Virus record (IMG/VR): IMGVR_UViG_3300012356_000007
Span: 1-22,373 of that record
Strand: one strand, 5' to 3'
DNA: 22,373 nt
Source: a virus
How positions within the stretch are numbered: position 1 is the first letter of the stretch; the number at the start of each line of letters is the position of its first letter. This document shows positions 1,464 to 10,549 of the stretch, in pieces. The notes under the pieces were generated by a model that was given only the letters and a program-made list of their open reading frames with translations, searched no databases and had not been told where the DNA came from. The position numbers were made by a program, and so were the translations under genes.

Positions 1464-2156
1464 CTACTTCATGCCGTAGCGGTGCGGGTGCTGATACAGC
1501 CACCGCGTGATTGATCCGTCGGCATTGCGCCGGTTGTATTCCTCTGGATTCTTCTGCAATTGAATGATCGTCTCCCAGGAAAGCTCTTGCGGCGCAGTAC
1601 TCTGCGATCTGCTCGGATTCGTTGCGCCCCCGCTTGTCGCTGCCTGTGCTTTGCTTACCAGTGTTGGATACTGCTTGATCAAGGCTTTCAGCACATCAGC
1701 AACGTTTGCCGGGGTGCCATCATCGCCATACTCAATCTCAGAGCGATCAATGAGCTTACTGGCTAGCGTCGGATCGATGCCTTGTTGCAATGCTTGAAGC
1801 TGGATAGCAGAGCCAACGCGCAGTTCCTGGGCTTGCAGGGTGGCTTGCTCTTTCTCGGCTTGCAGAGTAGCTAACTGTTTTTGCAGTTTCTCCGTCTCGC
1901 TGAGCTTCGATGCTTCAAGCTCTGACTTGAGTTTCTTGTACTCATTGGCATCGTGACGATGTGCCGCAGCCTCAGAGTTGGCTTTCTTGCGCGCTGCCCG
2001 CTCTTCATCTAAGAGCTTCTGCAATTCTTCAATGGACAGTGGTGTTGTCGTGGTAGTCCCTGGCGTCTCACCAGTTCCTGCGTTGGGCGTCTCGCCCGGT
2101 GGGACCGTTCCGTTCGGCGTCTCGCCTTGCGGATCGGTGTTTGCTTCGTTAGTCAT
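1464..2156 (-). CDS. Phage scaffolding protein
   Basis: The product (230 aa) should guide capsid protein assembly into the procapsid and then leave. It has the usual scaffold layout: a disordered Pro/Thr/Gly N-terminus with repeated GETPN/GETPG units (residues 10-40), a long charged coiled coil with many Lys, Glu and Gln (about 41-120), and a basic C-terminal tail ending in HPHRYGMK, the part that usually touches the coat protein. An AAGGA site lies seven bases before the ATG. It directly precedes the capsid gene, the standard order. A consensus TTGACA box lies just upstream (see the promoter entry at 2157). Confidence 0.88.
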   Translation of the reverse strand: MTNEANTDPQGETPNGTVPPGETPNAGTGETPGTTTTTPLSIEELQKLLDEERAARKKANSEAAAHRHDANEYKKLKSELEASKLSETEKLQKQLATLQAEKEQATLQAQELRVGSAIQLQALQQGIDPTLASKLIDRSEIEYGDDGTPANVADVLKALIKQYPTLVSKAQAATSGGATNPSRSQSTAPQELSWETIIQLQKNPEEYNRRNADGSITRWLYQHPHRYGMK

Positions 2157-4526: not shown

Positions 4527-6013
4527 TGCCCTATCCCAGCCTTTCCTTGCTGTCCTTGTGCACTCTGCGCCATGCCTTGCTGTTGCGGTGGCTGACCAGG
4601 TGATGCCGAGGGAGCTGGCGGCATGCCCTGGCCTCTGCTGAAGTTTGTGAGTTTCTTTGCATCTTCCTGGGTGCTTTTCTCTGCCTCATCATCAGGGTCA
4701 TAGCCAAGGCCCTGCTGAATGGTGGCATCGCTGATTCCAAGCTGCTTAAGCACCAATGCTTCCTGAGCCGCTGCCAGATCATCCACTGGTAAGAGCGGCT
4801 GCCAGTGCAAGCCAATCTTGTAATCCTCGAATTGCTCTACAGGGATAAGACCAGAGAGAACCAGCGCCGCCCGCGAGATCTCACGGATCAAGCGACCATA
4901 GAGCCGCTGCTTCTCTGTGGTCTTTTCCAGGATGGGCTGATAATACACTGTGAGTGCCACGCCGCTGATATTGCCCCTGGGCTCGTTGACGCCTCGCGCG
5001 ATAGCAGGGACACGGCTCTGCACATCGATATAGGTCTGGATATCGCTTGCATGGTCGCGGCTGCTTTGCAGGTTGCTCTGCATTTCCAGGTTCTTTACCG
5101 TGCTATCAGGCGATGGCAAACAGAGCACATCATCGACAGAGACGCTAATCTGCGTTGAGACCACGCCAGTCGCAACGGTCTTTGGATGCGCGTGGTACTT
5201 GATGATGCGGCTTGTGTTGCTCATGGTGAACTGCAACGATTTTGCGAGTGCGATGATCTCAGGGGGCAAGTCAGTGCCTCCCCAAGACTCGTTGGGATTC
5301 GGGAGATTCTTGTTCGTGAAGATGGGCGGGAATGGATAGAGCCAGTCTTGCGGCTCTCCGACCTGTTGCCACGTATCCTGCGGCCCGCCCAGCGCACGCC
5401 GCTGATAGTTGGTGATCGTCCATGTATCATCAGGGTCATTGTTGCCCCAGAGCTCCACAGAGCTACCAGGATCAATCCTGGCAATGATTTGTCGCTTTTG
5501 CATCCCGCCGGATATCGGGTATTCGAGGATAAAGGCAAGGATGATCTCGCAGTCCTCTGGATCTACGACTTTCCTGATCAGCATTGGATCAAGGTTGACC
5601 ATGCGTGGATACTTCATACCCTGCTTTGCTGGAATCAGCTTGACAAAGGTTTGCCCGCACACACCGCCATTCGTGGCAATCTCAGTGAGGAGTGACATTT
5701 TGTCGTCGTCGTCGCCCCACAAGCCATTCAAGAAATCCTGGATTGGCGAGTTTGCTTTGCTTGTTTCATCGCTGGCCTCGATCTTGACCGGCTTATTGCA
5801 GAGATAGGAGACGCCTTTCTCGACAATGGTTGCGCAGGGATTCGGCTGCACATTGTCGTCAGGCTGATCTTTGTCGATCTTGAGCGGCTTTGAAAACTCG
5901 CCGCGATACGCTTTCCATGCTTCCCGCATTGCCCGCTTCCTGTCCTGGTCTACCTGGGGAATCGGGGCCTGGGCCAGTGATAAGCGTTGCTGTTGTTGGG
6001 TCGGTGCGATCAT
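4523..6013 (-). CDS. Phage portal protein (SPP1 gp6-like)
   Basis: The portal is the dodecameric ring at one head vertex through which DNA enters and leaves. The 496-residue product has WKAYRGEF, the NPCATIVEKGVSYLCNKPVKIE segment and a long acidic/aromatic middle typical of SPP1-type portals. The C-terminus is Gln/Pro/Gly-rich and low in complexity. The start ATG overlaps the stop of the homing endonuclease gene as ATGA, and the GGAGG ribosome site lies inside the last codons of that endonuclease gene. The order terminase-portal-minor head-scaffold-capsid is classical and supports the call. Confidence 0.9.
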   Translation of the reverse strand: MIAPTQQQQRLSLAQAPIPQVDQDRKRAMREAWKAYRGEFSKPLKIDKDQPDDNVQPNPCATIVEKGVSYLCNKPVKIEASDETSKANSPIQDFLNGLWGDDDDKMSLLTEIATNGGVCGQTFVKLIPAKQGMKYPRMVNLDPMLIRKVVDPEDCEIILAFILEYPISGGMQKRQIIARIDPGSSVELWGNNDPDDTWTITNYQRRALGGPQDTWQQVGEPQDWLYPFPPIFTNKNLPNPNESWGGTDLPPEIIALAKSLQFTMSNTSRIIKYHAHPKTVATGVVSTQISVSVDDVLCLPSPDSTVKNLEMQSNLQSSRDHASDIQTYIDVQSRVPAIARGVNEPRGNISGVALTVYYQPILEKTTEKQRLYGRLIREISRAALVLSGLIPVEQFEDYKIGLHWQPLLPVDDLAAAQEALVLKQLGISDATIQQGLGYDPDDEAEKSTQEDAKKLTNFSRGQGMPPAPSASPGQPPQQQGMAQSAQGQQGKAGIGQ

Positions 6014-6633
6014 GGTGTATTCCTCCGAGGATGTTTACGGCCAATCTTAGACAACCTTATTTTCTCAATGGTTTCAGGTGCAAGTTTCTGACCAAGCTTC
6101 GATTTATTGCCTATCAAGGCCAAGTGAATCTTCTCACGGGCCTCATCTGAATGTTTACGACCAAGAACAGCTCGTCTTTGCTTTTCGATGGCTTCAGGAG
6201 AGGGCTTACGACCCAAAATAGGTGTGAGTCCAACGTGAGCTTTTCTCTTCTTTTCTCGTGTTTCAGGAGAGTCTTTTACACCAAAACGAGAGCCAGCAAC
6301 ATGGGCGATATTATAGCCTTTTTCACCAAAAGCCTTGAGCTTATCGATCCAATATTGTTCACGCGCCGTCAAAAGCTCAGAGAGGAGGACCAGTTCTAGT
6401 ACTTCAAAGGTGAAATTATGTTCTCCGTACGTGTTCCATGCATTTTGTAATTTGGGGTTGCCATGCTTTTTTAACCGAAGGTTACTAAGATGTGTGCTTC
6501 GTCGACGACGGAGATTGGTCGTGCTTCCAATGTATATCTTGTGGGTAGCAAGACAGGTAATTTTGTAAATACCGGATGCATCCGGTATTTGCGAGGGATT
6601 GCCGTTATAGCCATGAGGTGATAAAGTATCCAT
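6010..6633 (-). CDS. GIY-YIG homing endonuclease with NUMOD3 repeats
   Basis: 207 residues from the ATG at 6633, with AGGAG seven bases upstream; an in-frame start at 6765 overlaps the terminase and lacks a ribosome site. Residues 21-23 (GIY) and 34-36 (YIG) begin the nuclease domain, which continues through SELLTAREQYWIDKL. The C-terminal half has four NUMOD3-type DNA-binding repeats of the form K-x-S-P-E-x-x-E-K-x-x-x-x-x-x-G. This makes it a free-standing mobile endonuclease placed between terminase and portal. It has its own promoter, and its end supplies the portal ribosome site, so the insertion is cleanly adapted. Confidence 0.92.
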   Translation of the reverse strand: MDTLSPHGYNGNPSQIPDASGIYKITCLATHKIYIGSTTNLRRRRSTHLSNLRLKKHGNPKLQNAWNTYGEHNFTFEVLELVLLSELLTAREQYWIDKLKAFGEKGYNIAHVAGSRFGVKDSPETREKKRKAHVGLTPILGRKPSPEAIEKQRRAVLGRKHSDEAREKIHLALIGNKSKLGQKLAPETIEKIRLSKIGRKHPRRNTP

Positions 6634-6661
6634 GACAAGTCTCCTAATCAGATTTGTCCAC

Positions 6662-6691
6662 GTCCGAGGGTGCGGGTAACACCGCTCGGAC
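6662..6691 (-). other. Stem-loop in the leader of the homing endonuclease mRNA
   Basis: A 7-bp perfect stem, GTCCGAG with CTCGGAC, encloses a 16-base loop. It lies between the promoter at 6712 and the ribosome site of the endonuclease gene, about 30 bases upstream of the start. It has no T-run, so it is not an obvious terminator. It may insulate the gene from read-through translation or stabilise the message, which is inference. Confidence 0.5.
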
Positions 6692-6711
6692 ACCACATTA
6701 TTTATGGGCTT

Positions 6712-6740
6712 ATTATACCATAAACCCGCCTGTAGAGCAA
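6712..6740 (-). promoter_or_regulatory. Extended -10 promoter of the homing endonuclease gene
   Basis: TTGCTC (6740-6735), a 17-base spacer and a consensus TATAAT (6717-6712) preceded by TGG. It lies in the gap between the terminase stop and the endonuclease start, giving a leader of roughly 70 bases. This is one of the best sigma70-like promoters in the window. It suggests the endonuclease is expressed independently of the late operon and may also transcribe the portal gene. Confidence 0.75.
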
Positions 6741-6755
6741 ATTTAGACGTTTTTA

Positions 6756-8138
6756 TCATCGCCATATATCCTTGAAATACGTGGCTCCGCCCGGCTGCAA
6801 ATCGAAGCGAGCGCAGAGATAGCGGACACAGTCCTCAGCGTGATTGTCTGCGTCTACCGGCTCTTCTTTGGCGCTCTGGTCTGCGCCACGCTTCCATACA
6901 TAGACTTCCATCTCGTCCTCCAGGCACTTCGGCTTTTTGAGCCGTGCTAGCTCAGGATCAGCGTCGTAGAGACTGCCACGCACAATGACTAATCGCGGCT
7001 TGCCATCACCGGCGGGTCGTAGCCTGGCTGCAACCGCCTGGATACCATCGGATATCGTCTTCTTGGCCGCAGTCGTCATCATGCCAAGATGCCGCTCCAA
7101 GGTTGCGCGGTCCTCAGCGTCATGATCCGCAATAATCTCGCGTGGCAATGGATCAGCCCACTCAGCCGGGCGCGCATGGTACTTTGCGTGATCTTTGGGT
7201 AGGAGATGATACCAGCCGCTCGCTATGGCGATCTCGCGGGCATGGTCCTCCACAAGGCGCTTTGTCCGGTAGAGTTGGCGATAAATGACCATGCGCCCGT
7301 CGGGATCAATGGCTGCCCACAGACAGACGAAGGGGTTCGAGTAGCCGAAGTCGATAGCGAGATAACGCGGCCATTCAGTCGGCACATTGAAACGATCTAT
7401 GACGTTACGCGCACGGTCCCAGGAATCGAGGTAGACCGTTCCCTCAGCAGCGACCCATTGTCCATAGCGCAATCGTGCCAGACGTACACCTGTGAGGCCA
7501 CCTAAGACGCCTTCGATGTAGTTGTATCCCTCATCTGTCCAGTCCTGTGTAGTAGCATCGTAGTACTTGGGATTATACTCATGTCTGGAGAGTAACCGTG
7601 TAGTAATTCCTTCGTTCATCCTCTGATTCAGCCAATGGGTTGGCTCTACAGGGTTCACGTCAGCGATAAGTTGATGGTAAGGGGCCGCGCCATGCCTGAG
7701 TCGAGACCGAACGAACTCCCAATCCTCAAGACTTACTTCGGTCGCTTCATTAATATAGGTGAAGTCATATTCCCATGATTTGATCTTTTCAGGGCGATCT
7801 AGCCCATTTACAACAAGTACGGAGCCATTCGGATATTCAAAGGCTGCTGGACGTATCTTATTCCCGCCGAAGTATTTTATGCGCTCTCTCACATCAATCA
7901 TTTCGCGATAGGTAGCGACAGCGGAGCCTGCAAGAGCAGTATTGGTCTTTCTGGCAACTAAGGCTTTGGAGCCTGGATACATCGTAAGGAGCATATGTAC
8001 CTTAAACAGCGCCGCCACCGTTTTACCGCTACCGGCTGGCCCGTCGAGACAAACCTCTAAGTCTCGACAGGCCCCTAGTTCAAGATGCGCGCCTCTCAAC
8101 TCGGGCGCTTTGATCACGATCTCGGCGGCTGTGGTCAT
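6756..8138 (-). CDS. terL: Terminase large subunit
   Basis: TerL is the ATP-driven motor and nuclease that packages and cuts phage DNA. The 460-residue product has a Walker A GPAGSGKT at 33-40, a Walker B-type strand with acidic pair in FTYINEATE (about 130), and a C-terminal RNase H-like nuclease domain. The domain starts at YLAIDFGYSNP (first catalytic Asp, near 257) and contains a late acidic cluster DADNHAEDC (near 433). Length is normal. AGGAG lies seven bases before the ATG. The start region is duplicated about 410 bp upstream as a direct repeat. The putative small subunit is not adjacent but about 3 kb upstream. Confidence 0.95.
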   Translation of the reverse strand: MTTAAEIVIKAPELRGAHLELGACRDLEVCLDGPAGSGKTVAALFKVHMLLTMYPGSKALVARKTNTALAGSAVATYREMIDVRERIKYFGGNKIRPAAFEYPNGSVLVVNGLDRPEKIKSWEYDFTYINEATEVSLEDWEFVRSRLRHGAAPYHQLIADVNPVEPTHWLNQRMNEGITTRLLSRHEYNPKYYDATTQDWTDEGYNYIEGVLGGLTGVRLARLRYGQWVAAEGTVYLDSWDRARNVIDRFNVPTEWPRYLAIDFGYSNPFVCLWAAIDPDGRMVIYRQLYRTKRLVEDHAREIAIASGWYHLLPKDHAKYHARPAEWADPLPREIIADHDAEDRATLERHLGMMTTAAKKTISDGIQAVAARLRPAGDGKPRLVIVRGSLYDADPELARLKKPKCLEDEMEVYVWKRGADQSAKEEPVDADNHAEDCVRYLCARFDLQPGGATYFKDIWR

Positions 8139-8139
8139 G
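8122..8139 (+). repeat. 18-bp direct repeat, copy 1
   Basis: TCGGCGGCTGTGGTCATG here is repeated exactly at 8532-8549, 410 bp away. On the minus strand it encodes the first codons of terL. On the plus strand it supplies the upstream half of a promoter in both copies. The repeats bracket the small plus-strand gene. Confidence 0.85.
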
Positions 8140-8162
8140 TCAACACTCCTCTATGGTATACT
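8132..8162 (+). promoter_or_regulatory. Plus-strand extended -10 promoter for the 8183 gene
   Basis: TATACT at 8157-8162 is preceded directly by TGG, an extended -10. A poor -35 (TGGTCA, 8132-8137) lies 19 bases upstream. Transcription would start near 8169, immediately before the AGGAG ribosome site, giving a very short leader. The second plus-strand promoter at 8542 has the same layout. Confidence 0.55.
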
Positions 8163-8182: not shown

Positions 8183-8521
8183 ATGGAATGGCCGGAGAAT
8201 ACGCATCGATTCGCCATAAATCAGGACGGGAAGGATATCACCATTCTGCTGTGGAAGCTCGGTTCGCTCTGCATTGACGAGATGCAGACTCTGTTGCACG
8301 GCACCGATTATAAACACGCCCCACTTTTCCATCCAGGCATCAATAGGCAGGAGTACAGAGAACAGAGAGAGTATCTGCTCACGCTTATGATGGATGTTGC
8401 GCAAGAAATCGGCGCAACGAAAGAGGATGTCCTTGCAGCCTGGGATGCTGCCACGTCGGAACGCGAAGAAGGGCAACACTACGCGCAAGAAACAAAACAG
8501 TATTGGAGTCATGAGACATAA
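8183..8521 (+). CDS. Moron-like small protein on the opposite strand, unknown function
   Basis: The only convincing plus-strand protein gene. The ATG at 8183 has AGGAG seven bases upstream (an in-frame start at 8153 precedes the promoter). The 112-residue product, MEWPENTHRFAINQDGKD..., is hydrophilic, mostly helical and acidic, with no membrane segment or Cys motif. It contains EYREQREYLLTLMMDVAQEIGATKEDVLAAW, a helix-rich middle that might pack as a small helical bundle. I recognise no family. It has its own promoter, lies between direct repeats and opposes all neighbours, the usual signature of a phage moron that can be expressed from a prophage. A minus-strand frame over the same bases looks like a shadow. 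Confidence 0.75.
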   Translation: MEWPENTHRFAINQDGKDITILLWKLGSLCIDEMQTLLHGTDYKHAPLFHPGINRQEYREQREYLLTLMMDVAQEIGATKEDVLAAWDAATSEREEGQHYAQETKQYWSHET

Positions 8522-8531
8522 TTTTCTTGCT

Positions 8532-8549
8532 TCGGCGGCTGTGGTCATG
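8532..8549 (+). repeat. 18-bp direct repeat, copy 2
   Basis: Exact copy of the repeat at 8122-8139. The similarity continues weakly for about 20 bases into the following promoter, which ends in TATACT in both places. Confidence 0.85.
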
Positions 8550-8570
8550 CTTCACCGCCTCTGCTATACT
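8542..8570 (+). promoter_or_regulatory. Plus-strand extended -10 promoter for the structured RNA
   Basis: TGGTCA (8542-8547), a 17-base spacer and TATACT (8565-8570) preceded by TGC. The predicted start, near 8577, coincides with the first base of the outer stem of the structured RNA. Confidence 0.6.
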
Positions 8571-8576
8571 TCTTGC

Positions 8577-8762
8577 ACACAAGCGTGGCAGAAAAGAGAA
8601 TGCTAATCAGAGTGTGGAGAACTTGTTCGGTGTAGTGATACGGTGCGGACAAGACTTGCCGAGATGAGTATGGTAGGCAAGCGACAAGGAATAACGAGGC
8701 GTCATCACAAACACGCCTATCCACATTCCATGCAGGGTGCAACTCCCTGCCGCTTGTGTACA
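8577..8762 (+). ncRNA. Candidate structured RNA with cloverleaf (tRNA-like) topology, about 185 nt
   Basis: Hand-folded helices nest without conflict. Outer stem 8577-8585/8751-8759 has 9 bp. A 4-bp arm 8587-8590/8601-8604 has a 10-base loop. A 9-bp stem 8610-8618/8720-8728 (one GU) encloses three hairpins: 8622-8629/8646-8653, with an inner GTGA tetraloop at 8635; 8655-8660/8676-8681; and 8697-8702/8713-8718. A 6-bp arm 8732-8737/8745-8750 has the 7-base loop TGCAACT and abuts the outer stem. This is the order acceptor, D-like, expanded anticodon domain, T-like, acceptor. No CCA is encoded, no ORF fits well, and it is much shorter than typical tmRNA. The promoter just upstream favours the plus strand. 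Confidence 0.65.
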
Positions 8763-8765
8763 CGA

Positions 8766-9098: not shown

Positions 9099-9578
9099 TT
9101 ATCGCGGTCCCAGGAACTCACCTGAAACCGCCCGTACACCTGTATTCTCTCGTACAATCCCACGATGGGCCATTAGTTTCTTCTCTGCTTCAACAGAGAT
9201 GGGGAATGCTTCTACGCCCGATTGATCACATAGCTGAATATCTTTGATCTCTGCGTGAAATAGTTTAGCAAGATACGTCACAACATGATTCTGCTTTGCC
9301 TCCTGTGCAGCTTCTTCAAGACGTACCCTGGATGTCATTGACATTCGCTCACATTTATCTGTATACACACGACGCGTAACATAAAAATCCATAGACTCCC
9401 ACTCCGCCGCATAGGATATCGAAAGAGATTCTTCAGTATCAGCGAGTAACAGCGTCATGGACTGATTTATAATCGATAGTGAAGGTGATGCCGAAAGTGC
9501 GTAGGCACCATTCACGGTTTGCGGGCGTATTTGCGCTTTTGCCAAGCCACCAAATAACGTCAATTCCTGCTCGCTCAT
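9099..9578 (-). CDS. Unknown protein overlapping the CoiA-like gene out of frame
   Basis: The longest frame starts at ATG 9578 with a GAGGG site and gives 159 residues, MSEQELTLFGGLAKAQ.... The first 46 codons lie inside the CoiA-like gene in another frame, which is a long overlap for this compact genome. An internal ATG at 9458 would give 119 residues with only a small overlap, but no ribosome site is visible there. The C-terminal part (about 80-159) is helical with Lys/Glu and looks genuine. No domain recognised. I keep the longer start because of its ribosome site, with doubt. Confidence 0.6.
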   Translation of the reverse strand: MSEQELTLFGGLAKAQIRPQTVNGAYALSASPSLSIINQSMTLLLADTEESLSISYAAEWESMDFYVTRRVYTDKCERMSMTSRVRLEEAAQEAKQNHVVTYLAKLFHAEIKDIQLCDQSGVEAFPISVEAEKKLMAHRGIVRENTGVRAVSGEFLGPR

Positions 9579-9996
9579 AATCCCTCGTTCTCTCCTCTAA
9601 TTGCTCCGTAGTAATTGATGCTAATTGCACCTCATGGGCAACTTTGTGCCCTTTGGGAAAGGTCGCTAGCAAATCAACAACACGGCTCACTTCTTTAATG
9701 GGAACTTCATATTCCAAGTCAGCATCTTTATAATCACTATATCGTTGTGGTAGTTGTTCTTTCAGGAACATCTTAGCAGCGCGATGTTCTGGACTCTCAG
9801 GATGAGACGCGTAATCAGTATCACAAGAGTTTGCATGAGCAAAATGAGAGCGTTTAATTAATCCTGCTTTGATGATCATAGGTAATCTACAAAGTTGACA
9901 AATACACTCACCAGATACCAATACATCACGAGGTTTCGCGATCTTAGTAATATCGATCCTTTCCCCTGTATCCTTGTGCAATGCTATAAATGGCAT
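9439..9996 (-). CDS. CoiA-like competence/nuclease protein
   Basis: 185 residues from ATG 9996, with a GAGGGTGG site; an upstream ATG at 10071 lies inside the previous gene. Features match CoiA-family proteins: a zinc-type C33-x2-C36, then HFAH (51-54), ESPEHRAAK (67-75), and a PD-(D/E)xK-type core with VVDLL (Asp108), HEVQ (Glu122, Gln124) and GIDVIWWLG (144-152). CoiA is linked to DNA processing in natural competence, and phage homologues are probably DNA nucleases. It is paired with an HTH/GIY-YIG-like gene just upstream, 19 bases away, in one unit. Confidence 0.8.
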   Translation of the reverse strand: MPFIALHKDTGERIDITKIAKPRDVLVSGECICQLCRLPMIIKAGLIKRSHFAHANSCDTDYASHPESPEHRAAKMFLKEQLPQRYSDYKDADLEYEVPIKEVSRVVDLLATFPKGHKVAHEVQLASITTEQLEERTRDYERAGIDVIWWLGKSANTPANREWCLRTFGITFTIDYKSVHDAVTR

Positions 9997-10015
9997 CAAT
10001 TCCACCCTCTCATTG

Positions 10016-10549
10016 TTAGACAAAAGCCGACGGCAAAAGTGTGGGCATACACGCAAAGAACGCATCACCACGCGCTAGCAAGTTCTCGATATCGGCGCAT
10101 CCGTAGACCTCGCCACCAATTAAGATACAGTTCTCAGCAGTGAGGCTGTCAATCGCTGCTCGTTCCCATGTAGAGCGACAAGGCCATGTCCTCACAATAC
10201 GCGCCTCTGGTGAAAGCGTGCGATAGGATGCAAGGCGTCGGGTCGCATCGGATGCATAGCCCAACTTGAGGCGGGTCGAATCAGCATCAGGCATGATTTG
10301 CACAACATAAAAGACGCCTATCCCGTTCTCAATCGGGTGCACGTTCCCGCTATATCCCTCCTGTGATCGTACCTCCCGTAACAATTCCGCTTCCTCAATC
10401 TTTAAGGCAAGTACCGCCTGGTGAGTACGATCCTCACCACGAACCCGCGCAAAGTCAAAGCCACGACGGAGCGCATACTTACGAGCAGTTGATCTATCAA
10501 TGCCCCATTCCTGAGCTAATGTAGATAATAAGACGTACCCTTCTACCAT
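10016..10549 (-). CDS. HTH plus GIY-YIG-like (T5orf172-type) protein
   Basis: 177 residues. The N-terminus (1-45) looks like a DNA-binding helix-turn-helix: LSTLAQEWGIDRSTARKYALRRGFD. After a linker comes FYVVQIMPDADSTRLKLGYASDATRRLASYRT and then RIVRTWPCRSTWERAAIDSL, which fits the GIY-YIG-like T5orf172/Mud family, with the YVVQ strand, the KLGYA strand and the Glu of WERAA. GAGGAG precedes the ATG by five bases, and a strong promoter lies upstream. It could be a nuclease or a regulator that lost activity: the first GIY motif is FYVV here, so catalysis is uncertain. Confidence 0.7.
   Translation of the reverse strand: MVEGYVLLSTLAQEWGIDRSTARKYALRRGFDFARVRGEDRTHQAVLALKIEEAELLREVRSQEGYSGNVHPIENGIGVFYVVQIMPDADSTRLKLGYASDATRRLASYRTLSPEARIVRTWPCRSTWERAAIDSLTAENCILIGGEVYGCADIENLLARGDAFFACMPTLLPSAFV

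Follow-up and report, generated by a model that had tools for sequence, protein, structure and literature searches.

The window, by which we mean the whole stretch of 22,373 nucleotides analysed here (positions 1 to 22,373 of the IMG/VR record IMGVR_UViG_3300012356_000007), is a viral contig with its head and packaging genes on the minus strand. A GIY-YIG/NUMOD3 homing endonuclease lies between terL and the portal gene (6010-6765, minus strand), and a protein with a CoiA-like nuclease domain is encoded at 9439-10071 on the same strand, both recognised with Pfam. In L002 (897-2708), as in L003 and L004, TerL carries an apparent intein, the 603-aa ORF being 70% identical to the TerL of the window outside the insert. 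On the plus strand, a small gene beginning MEWPENTH (8183-8521) adjoins terL under its own TATACTT promoter; it has no Pfam or PHROG match, is more than 90% identical in the syntenic relative L005 (IMG/VR 3300012354_000006), and is regarded here as a second moron-like cassette at the same site as the cassette described below.

Our data show that a folded, non-protein RNA gene is present at 8577-8762 and that it belongs to a wider phage family; sequence and covariation support both points, and the features are collected in Table 1. L005 matches the window on both sides of the RNA cassette and is without 8525-8764. The promoter proposed in an earlier note, made from the sequence alone, is retained: its extended -10 element places the predicted start at about 8577, an inference from sequence, and the same type of promoter (CCTCT-N-TATACTT) also precedes the plus-strand gene at 8157. 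The copy of the terL-start repeat upstream of the RNA promoter reads MTTAAEA, and terL itself starts MTTAAEI. From this 18-bp repeat we infer that the cassette originated in a phage having the RNA directly upstream of terL, i.e. that it came from next to the terL of another phage. The minus-strand ORF 8769-8545 (74 codons) had no PHROG or Pfam match.

Table 1. Promoter, cassette and RNA elements in the window (window positions)
Feature	Position	Strand	Basis or remark
Promoter: -35-like TGGTCA, 17-nt spacer, extended -10 TGC-TATACT	8542..8570	+	sequence (predicted)
RNA cassette (promoter and RNA), 240 nt, absent from L005	8525..8764	+	L005 alignment: both flanks align, gap exactly here
18-bp direct repeat of the terL start (other copy 8122-8139), TCGGCGGCTGTGGTCATG	8532..8549	.	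minus strand reads MTTAAEA
Structured RNA, 186 nt	8577..8762	+	fold, covariance model matches of homologues, covariation
Outer stem 5' strand, acceptor-like, 9 bp with 8751-8759	8577..8585	+	fold; equivalents in relatives
D-arm-like hairpin, 8586-8590 paired with 8601-8605	8586..8605	+	fold; real D-arms in relatives
Linker AAUC, invariant	8605..8608	+	43/43 rows of alignment A9
P2 5' strand, in place of the anticodon stem, 9 bp with 8720-8728	8610..8618	+	compensatory changes at 8/8 alignment pairs
P3 5' strand CUUGU, pairs with ACAAG 8684-8688 (alternative: ACAAG 8649-8653)	8622..8626	+	P3 covariation in relatives
Cargo hairpin A, GUGA (GNRA) tetraloop 8635-8638	8626..8649	+	fold, covariation
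Pseudoknot strand 1 GGUG, partner CAUC 8703-8706	8642..8645	+	99.4% of cells paired
Cargo hairpin B, 8655-8660 with 8676-8681; conserved loop GAUGAGUAUGGU	8655..8681	+	6/6 pairs compensatory
P3 3' strand ACAAG	8684..8688	+	covariation
Constant module: (A)UAACGA, then hairpin C (8697-8702 with 8713-8718)	8692..8718	+	common to all subclasses; basal pair A-U/U-A/G-C
Pseudoknot strand 2 CAUC	8703..8706	+	covariation
P2 3' strand	8720..8728	+	covariation
T-arm-like hairpin, loop UGCAACU 8738-8744, flush against outer stem 3' strand	8732..8750	+	fold
Outer stem 3' strand, acceptor-like	8751..8759	+	fold

The minimum free energy of the plus strand over 8577-8762 was -66.2 kcal/mol (z -3.4), a value equalled by only 1 of 200 dinucleotide shuffles, and the minus strand gave a less stable fold (z -1.9). 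The earlier note had drawn a 9-bp outer stem, a T-arm-like hairpin with the loop TGCAACT flush against it, a D-like arm, a 9-bp inner stem and three hairpins, one closed by GTGA, and had read them as a tRNA/tmRNA-like topology with an expanded anticodon domain. All these elements are present in the sequence and the reading held, with one correction and one addition. The P3 strand CUUGU goes with the second ACAAG rather than, or besides, with the first one as in the minimum free energy fold, so that hairpins A and B lie within P3; and the pseudoknot between hairpin A and the loop of hairpin C had been missed and was seen only from the homologues. In the ACUUG subclass, the 5' strand of P3 (CUUGU in the window) is complementary to two 3' strands (8649-8653 and 8684-8688 in the window) and both seem to change with it, as exemplified by L258 (CUCGAUUG, GUCGAG, CAAUCGAG); this leaves room for a conformational switch, which is no more than a possibility. 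The outer part of the window RNA departs from a canonical tRNA: acceptor plus T-arm amount to 15 bp instead of 12, neither G18G19 in the D-loop nor a contact between D-loop and T-loop is evident although the outer stem, D-arm and flush T-arm are present, and CCA is not encoded. Cleavage of this particular RNA by RNase P or RNase Z is not assured, because of the 15 bp, the lack of an evident G18G19 and the missing CCA.

Homologues were not reached through the neighbouring genes: neither blastn of the window RNA against phages and plasmids nor searches centred on TerL gave any relative of the RNA, which indicates that it does not travel with terL. The first true relatives were obtained by scanning IMG/VR for a single 16-nt loop (CGGTGTAGTGATACGG) and matched R1, a covariance model with the window sequence as its only input, over their full length with E values of 1e-19 to 1e-34. 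A second pattern, made of letters common to these relatives, returned 63 IMG/VR stretches, and 59 IMG/VR loci other than the window matched R1 at E <= 0.002, most of them at 1e-11 to 1e-33 and over all 186 positions. A universal pattern for the constant module was found in at least 120 IMG/VR stretches; nearly all of the 60 loci added in this way also matched R2, the core model. Several candidates were discarded. The scan with an 18-mer of the T-arm (L007 to L011) returned only T-arms of tRNA or tmRNA type; the promoter/terL-start pattern gave L005 and chance matches only; L174, the sole R1 match (20 bits) in 47 genomes from the class to which a Ktedonobacterales MAG belongs, was judged to be a tRNA-like fragment or chance; L059, which is coding, as well as L179, L183 and L184, were dropped as chance matches.

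The structure was evaluated on an alignment (A9) of 43 distinct core sequences, with the window as row 1. Since it was built with MAFFT without the use of structure, this alignment is not biased towards the proposed pairs; these pairs were, however, picked by eye from the same sequences. The refined structure including the pseudoknot is paired in 91.6% of the cells, against 75.5% in shuffled alignments and 35-47% when the structure is slid along the alignment. Changes on both sides of a pair were observed at 23 pairs and in 242 cells (17.9 and 72.2 in shuffled alignments), and none of 500 shuffles reached either value. Such compensatory changes occur at every pair of P2 and of hairpin B, at 5/5 pairs of P3 and at two pairs of hairpin C. 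The four-pair pseudoknot, to which hairpin A contributes its 3' side and hairpin C its loop, appears as GGUG/CAUC, GGCG/CGUC, GAAG/CUUC, GACG/CGUC and GGUG/CACC. It replaces a kissing interaction between the loops of hairpins B and C (GAUGA/UCAUC), which the window alone had suggested and which failed on the alignment. The earlier note had named absence of covariation as an outcome that would refute it; this was checked and strong covariation was found instead. The window thus shows the covarying structure with pseudoknot by which window-type members are recognised, and as row 1 of A9 it also has the constant core that defines the new family (AAUC, P2, GAGA, AACGAGGCG, hairpin C and P2'). Across the family, this core forms a constant three-way junction made of GAGA, AAAACGA and hairpin C (GGCG..CGCC), and carries AAAACGAGGCG.

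In many relatives, this core is surrounded by tRNA-like parts: acceptor stem, D-arm, and a T-arm that directly adjoins the 3' acceptor strand. These shells were folded sequence by sequence with the core swapped for a stub, and a minority did not fold as a tRNA-like shell. Real tRNA-Leu-like D-arms with GG are found in L203 (GGCG GAAUAGGUAGA CGCU), L226, L216 and Listeria phage B025, three of which have the T-loop UGCAAAU. In many other relatives, the loops of the D-arm and of the T-arm are complementary and the complements differ from phage to phage (GCUGAU/AUCAGC, UAGCGA/UCGCUA, GUGAC/GUCAC, GCAAC/GUUGC): the mean Watson-Crick run was 4.57, compared with 3.23 after re-pairing the loops between members and 2.51 after shuffling, the observed value being reached in 0/5,000 trials of each control, with the caveat that the loops were read off by eye. 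As in the window, acceptor plus T-arm often measure 13-15 bp in the relatives and the 3' CCA is not consistently encoded. At least three members (L221, L194 and L206) have no tRNA-like shell and a longer P2, followed in L221 by a U-run, which indicates that the shell is separable and that the core can stand alone; in Achromobacter phage JWDelta, the outer stem is long and the T-arm absent. Two other RNAs, in Bacillus phage KLEB27-1 (L252 2001-2119) and Leuconostoc phage Ln-9 (L253 1501-1620), are tRNA-Leu-like with a different expanded insert replacing the anticodon arm, and could be further shells with other cores.

In contrast with the constant junction, the domain beyond P3 is exchangeable. 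In cultured phages and in many IMG/VR loci, the core model matches the ends (AAUC, P2 and GAGA on one side; AAAACGAGGCG, hairpin C and P2' on the other) whereas P3 differs in length and sequence. Of 102 distinct P3 domains, hereafter cargos, a sort by simple motifs assigns 45 to the window type, distinguishes at least five further groups and leaves 20 unclassified. Some of the cargos are tRNAs. ARAGORN finds a tRNA in 8/102 distinct cargos and in 0/1,020 shuffles, and a strict T-arm is present in 10 of the 102 and in no shuffle. Inside the RNA, Rfam tRNA scores reach 46.4 bits in L303, 45.0 in L291, 44.4 in L297 and 41.6 in L308, and by Rfam or ARAGORN the cargo tRNAs are those of L291, L303, L297, L308, L295 and L298. 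L291 folds with one complete cloverleaf inside the outer one, the inner acceptor stem passing without a break into P3. An inner tRNA of this type has no free 3' end and therefore, we infer, would not be chargeable unless cut out. The window-type cargo is a pseudoknotted two-hairpin domain that is not recognisably a tRNA; its conserved loop letters, GAUGRGUAUGGU, could equally be explained by ligand binding, by base pairing with a target or by catalysis. Cargos of another large class, about 130-160 nt long (GAGACCGCGUAAC..GAUAGCGAGA..CCCACAGA), were also observed with different shells, in L290, L292, L294, L306 and L320. Taken together, sequence and covariation establish an architecture in which a conserved shell and junction hold an exchangeable cargo, with its modularity and its association with tRNA genes.

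Among cultured phages, the carriers are Listeria B025, Klebsiella phi1_146050, Escherichia Jgk1, CUS-3, IME10, Huey, Achromobacter JWDelta, Acinetobacter SR and NL (the latter on a shared stretch only), Hafnia Meifeng, Aeromonas 62AhydR11PP and the Pseudomonas jumbo phage D6. The CUS-3 version is present in 118 of 5,426 complete E. coli genomes (about 2%). No feature was annotated under any of the 25 E. coli rows listed, nor any RNA gene in the records inspected. With the universal pattern, 0/369 genomes of one host class (that of a Pseudomonadales MAG) were positive; a host-chromosome version outside prophages was thus not found there, consistent with a phage-borne element. Genomic positions are diverse. 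CUS-3, IME10 and Huey have the RNA between Q and the holin gene. In Meifeng, two tRNA genes and the holin follow it directly, whereas it is within a tRNA cluster in D6 and just upstream of terS/terL in 62AhydR11PP. In nine loci, a tRNA gene of the same strand is no more than about 15 nt away, and in L180 and L190 tRNA genes flank the RNA on both sides, almost without gap.

Several other RNAs were recorded alongside. L180 is a 201-kb phage contig with the family RNA and 15 tRNA genes, in which an 81-nt Rfam tmRNA match spanning both model ends (9439-9519) corresponds to the tRNA-like domain of a tmRNA without ORF. In JWDelta (KF787094; L257 2797-3181), a permuted tmRNA (RF04321, 95.8 bits) holds a family member in its intervening segment, and in Listeria B025 an mcrA RNA (RF03010) is directly downstream of the family RNA (L249 4275-4325). 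A CCA-ended tmRNA-like RNA of about 100 nt (GGGTTTG..TTTCGA..GGGTGCAACTCCC..CAAATCCACCA), without tag region and missed by both ARAGORN and Rfam, is found in L007 (about 2000-2107, minus strand) and L009 (about 2500-2600).

Comparison with known RNAs did not assign the family to any of them. In Rfam 15, neither the window RNA nor the family RNA of the scanned member loci reached the gathering score of any family, and a permissive scan (up to E 10) gave only chance-level matches at the window RNA, to Tymo_tRNA-like and to a snoRNA. The Rfam search suggested in the earlier note was run in this way, without a family match. The window RNA has no ARAGORN or Rfam match as a tRNA and does not qualify as one. 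The 13 letters of its T-arm (GGGUGCAACUCCC) are identical to the tymovirus consensus of the plant-virus tRNA-like structures (RF00233), but the score (E 2.8, 12.9 bits against a gathering score of 40) is no family match, and RF00233 RNAs are the 3' ends of viral genomes. With tmRNA and permuted tmRNA (RF00023, RF04321) the family shares a tRNA-like domain whose anticodon arm is replaced by a large insert; in contrast, the window has no Rfam match and no tag-like ORF, the family RNA is likewise without tag ORF or match, and in JWDelta it sits between the two tmRNA pieces. YrlA-type Y RNAs are bacterial non-coding RNAs containing a tRNA mimic; their terminal stem binds the Ro/Rsr protein, whereas the family RNA uses this stem as the acceptor of its tRNA-like part. 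The exclusion of YrlA rests only on the absence of any Rfam match.

GOLLD and ROOL are phage RNAs of unknown function near tRNA islands, and the GOLLD linker sometimes holds tRNAs (PMC12286853). They resemble the family in their location, but they are several times longer, neither the window nor the scanned member loci gave a gathering-score match to them, and in the family RNA the tRNA-like part is the outer shell. The phi29 packaging RNA was likewise not matched in Rfam, and positions vary among relatives. In T4, rnaC (species 1) and rnaD (species 2) are also stable phage RNAs of unknown function inside a tRNA cluster, and rnaC ends in a T-arm and an acceptor-like strand; however, the constant AAAACGAGGCG module is absent from them and R2 finds nothing in the T4 tRNA region 69500-74500. 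In the engineered tRNA scaffold, a cargo RNA is displayed in place of the tRNA anticodon arm. That scaffold is a laboratory construct, whereas the family RNA is natural and has a conserved junction between shell and cargo. Unexplained phage RNAs have been seen by Grad-seq (PMC8545117), and no description of this RNA was found in the open-access papers searched, although one in a subscription journal could have been missed. As far as we could find, the family is therefore undescribed, being without an entry in Rfam 15 and without RNA annotation in the records inspected, and its shell and junction with an exchangeable cargo, even a whole tRNA, have no counterpart among the RNA families tested. 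The earlier note had proposed a tRNA mimic or a new class, and both options held, because of the strong covariation, the tRNA-like shell of the relatives, their covarying D-loop/T-loop contact and the lack of an Rfam match.

Our main reading, to which we give a probability of about 0.5, is that of a new and widespread phage non-coding RNA family with a natural tRNA scaffold outside and a decoy or mimic cargo inside, the decoy being its least certain part. The RNA would be transcribed as a separate, stand-alone molecule, an inference made without expression data. The outer domain would act as the scaffold and be matured by tRNA enzymes, RNase P at the 5' end and RNase Z or exonucleases at the 3' end; no processing data exist, and maturation of this kind is expected for those members that abut tRNA genes. 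By analogy with the laboratory scaffold, processing of the shell would protect the ends and yield a stable RNA. The displayed cargo might then tie up a host or anti-phage enzyme recognising tRNA or another structured RNA, and cargo swapping would reflect different targets. This last step is the weakest, as there are no binding data, and that the cargo is a decoy or mimic for such enzymes, the anticodon nucleases of anti-phage systems among the candidates, is a conjecture that we hold clearly more likely to be wrong than right. The same reserve applies to a bolder formulation, in which phages of many bacterial groups would carry a modular device in which a tRNA sits within a tRNA-like shell: this shell would provide tRNA-type processing and stability, the constant three-way junction would hold the device open, and the replaceable domain, in some cases an entire tRNA whose ends are buried, would be displayed as a bait or mimic to RNA enzymes of the host or of defence systems, e.g. 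tRNA-cutting nucleases. The variety of cargos, the whole tRNAs among them and the cassette-like gain or loss fit the decoy idea. It is weakened by the window-type cargo, which does not look like a tRNA, and by the neighbourhoods, where no consistent link of the RNA to a defence or counter-defence gene was established.

Other explanations could be put forward. The most serious is an RNA associated with translation, comparable to tmRNA or to the T4 stable RNAs, whose shell would reach EF-Tu or the ribosome while its core would either inhibit translation in the host or adjust it in favour of the phage. This remains possible: it is in agreement with the tRNA-like shell, with the location of members in tRNA clusters and of the JWDelta copy within a permuted tmRNA, and with the strong conservation of the core letters, but a tag ORF and a conserved anticodon are lacking, the lengthened acceptor plus T-arm and the inconsistent CCA are unfavourable, and some members have no shell at all. 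A base-pairing regulatory sRNA or sponge, with the variable P3 pairing to host or phage mRNAs or sRNAs and the shell as a stabiliser, appears unlikely. The cargo does vary between phages within a constant frame, and prophage sRNAs are known to regulate hosts (PMC13192938); however, the cargo is compact and paired, its loops are invariant across distant phages, unlike a seed tracking its targets, and most members end in a T-arm and acceptor stem without a U-tailed terminator stem.

Much less credit is given to the remaining proposals. An intron-like or self-cleaving mobile element, inserted into tRNA genes and cut out, would account for the order of acceptor, D-arm, insert and T-arm, as expected from an insert in the anticodon arm, and for the tRNA-Leu-like halves of some members (L203) and the gain or loss of the window cassette; yet no anticodon is left at the insertion point, the shell varies by member and does not correspond to a resident tRNA, matches to intron or ribozyme families are lacking and shell-less copies exist, which makes this reading very improbable. 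Even less likely is a packaging RNA of the phi29 pRNA type tied to the neighbouring terminase, an option raised in the earlier note and not supported. The RNA adjoins terL in the window and stands next to terminase genes in 62AhydR11PP, but in these two only; the other members lie between Q and holin, in tRNA clusters, in early regions or inside the permuted tmRNA locus, and phages with a related TerL, including the close relative L005, are without the RNA. That there is no RNA gene, the structure being a by-product of the minus-strand ORF, can be all but excluded: the open frame exists, but it matches no protein family and the compensatory changes across the 43 aligned sequences fit RNA pairing, which refutes this reading.

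The family spreads over phages of E. coli, Klebsiella, Hafnia, Aeromonas, Achromobacter, Acinetobacter, Pseudomonas and Listeria, and, because some relatives are in cultured E. coli phages, it is open to immediate testing. If the proposed reading is true, these RNAs would represent a possible general phage tool acting on the RNA machinery of the host, and they may bear on the old question of the purpose of phage stable RNAs in tRNA clusters, such as T4 species 1, GOLLD and ROOL.
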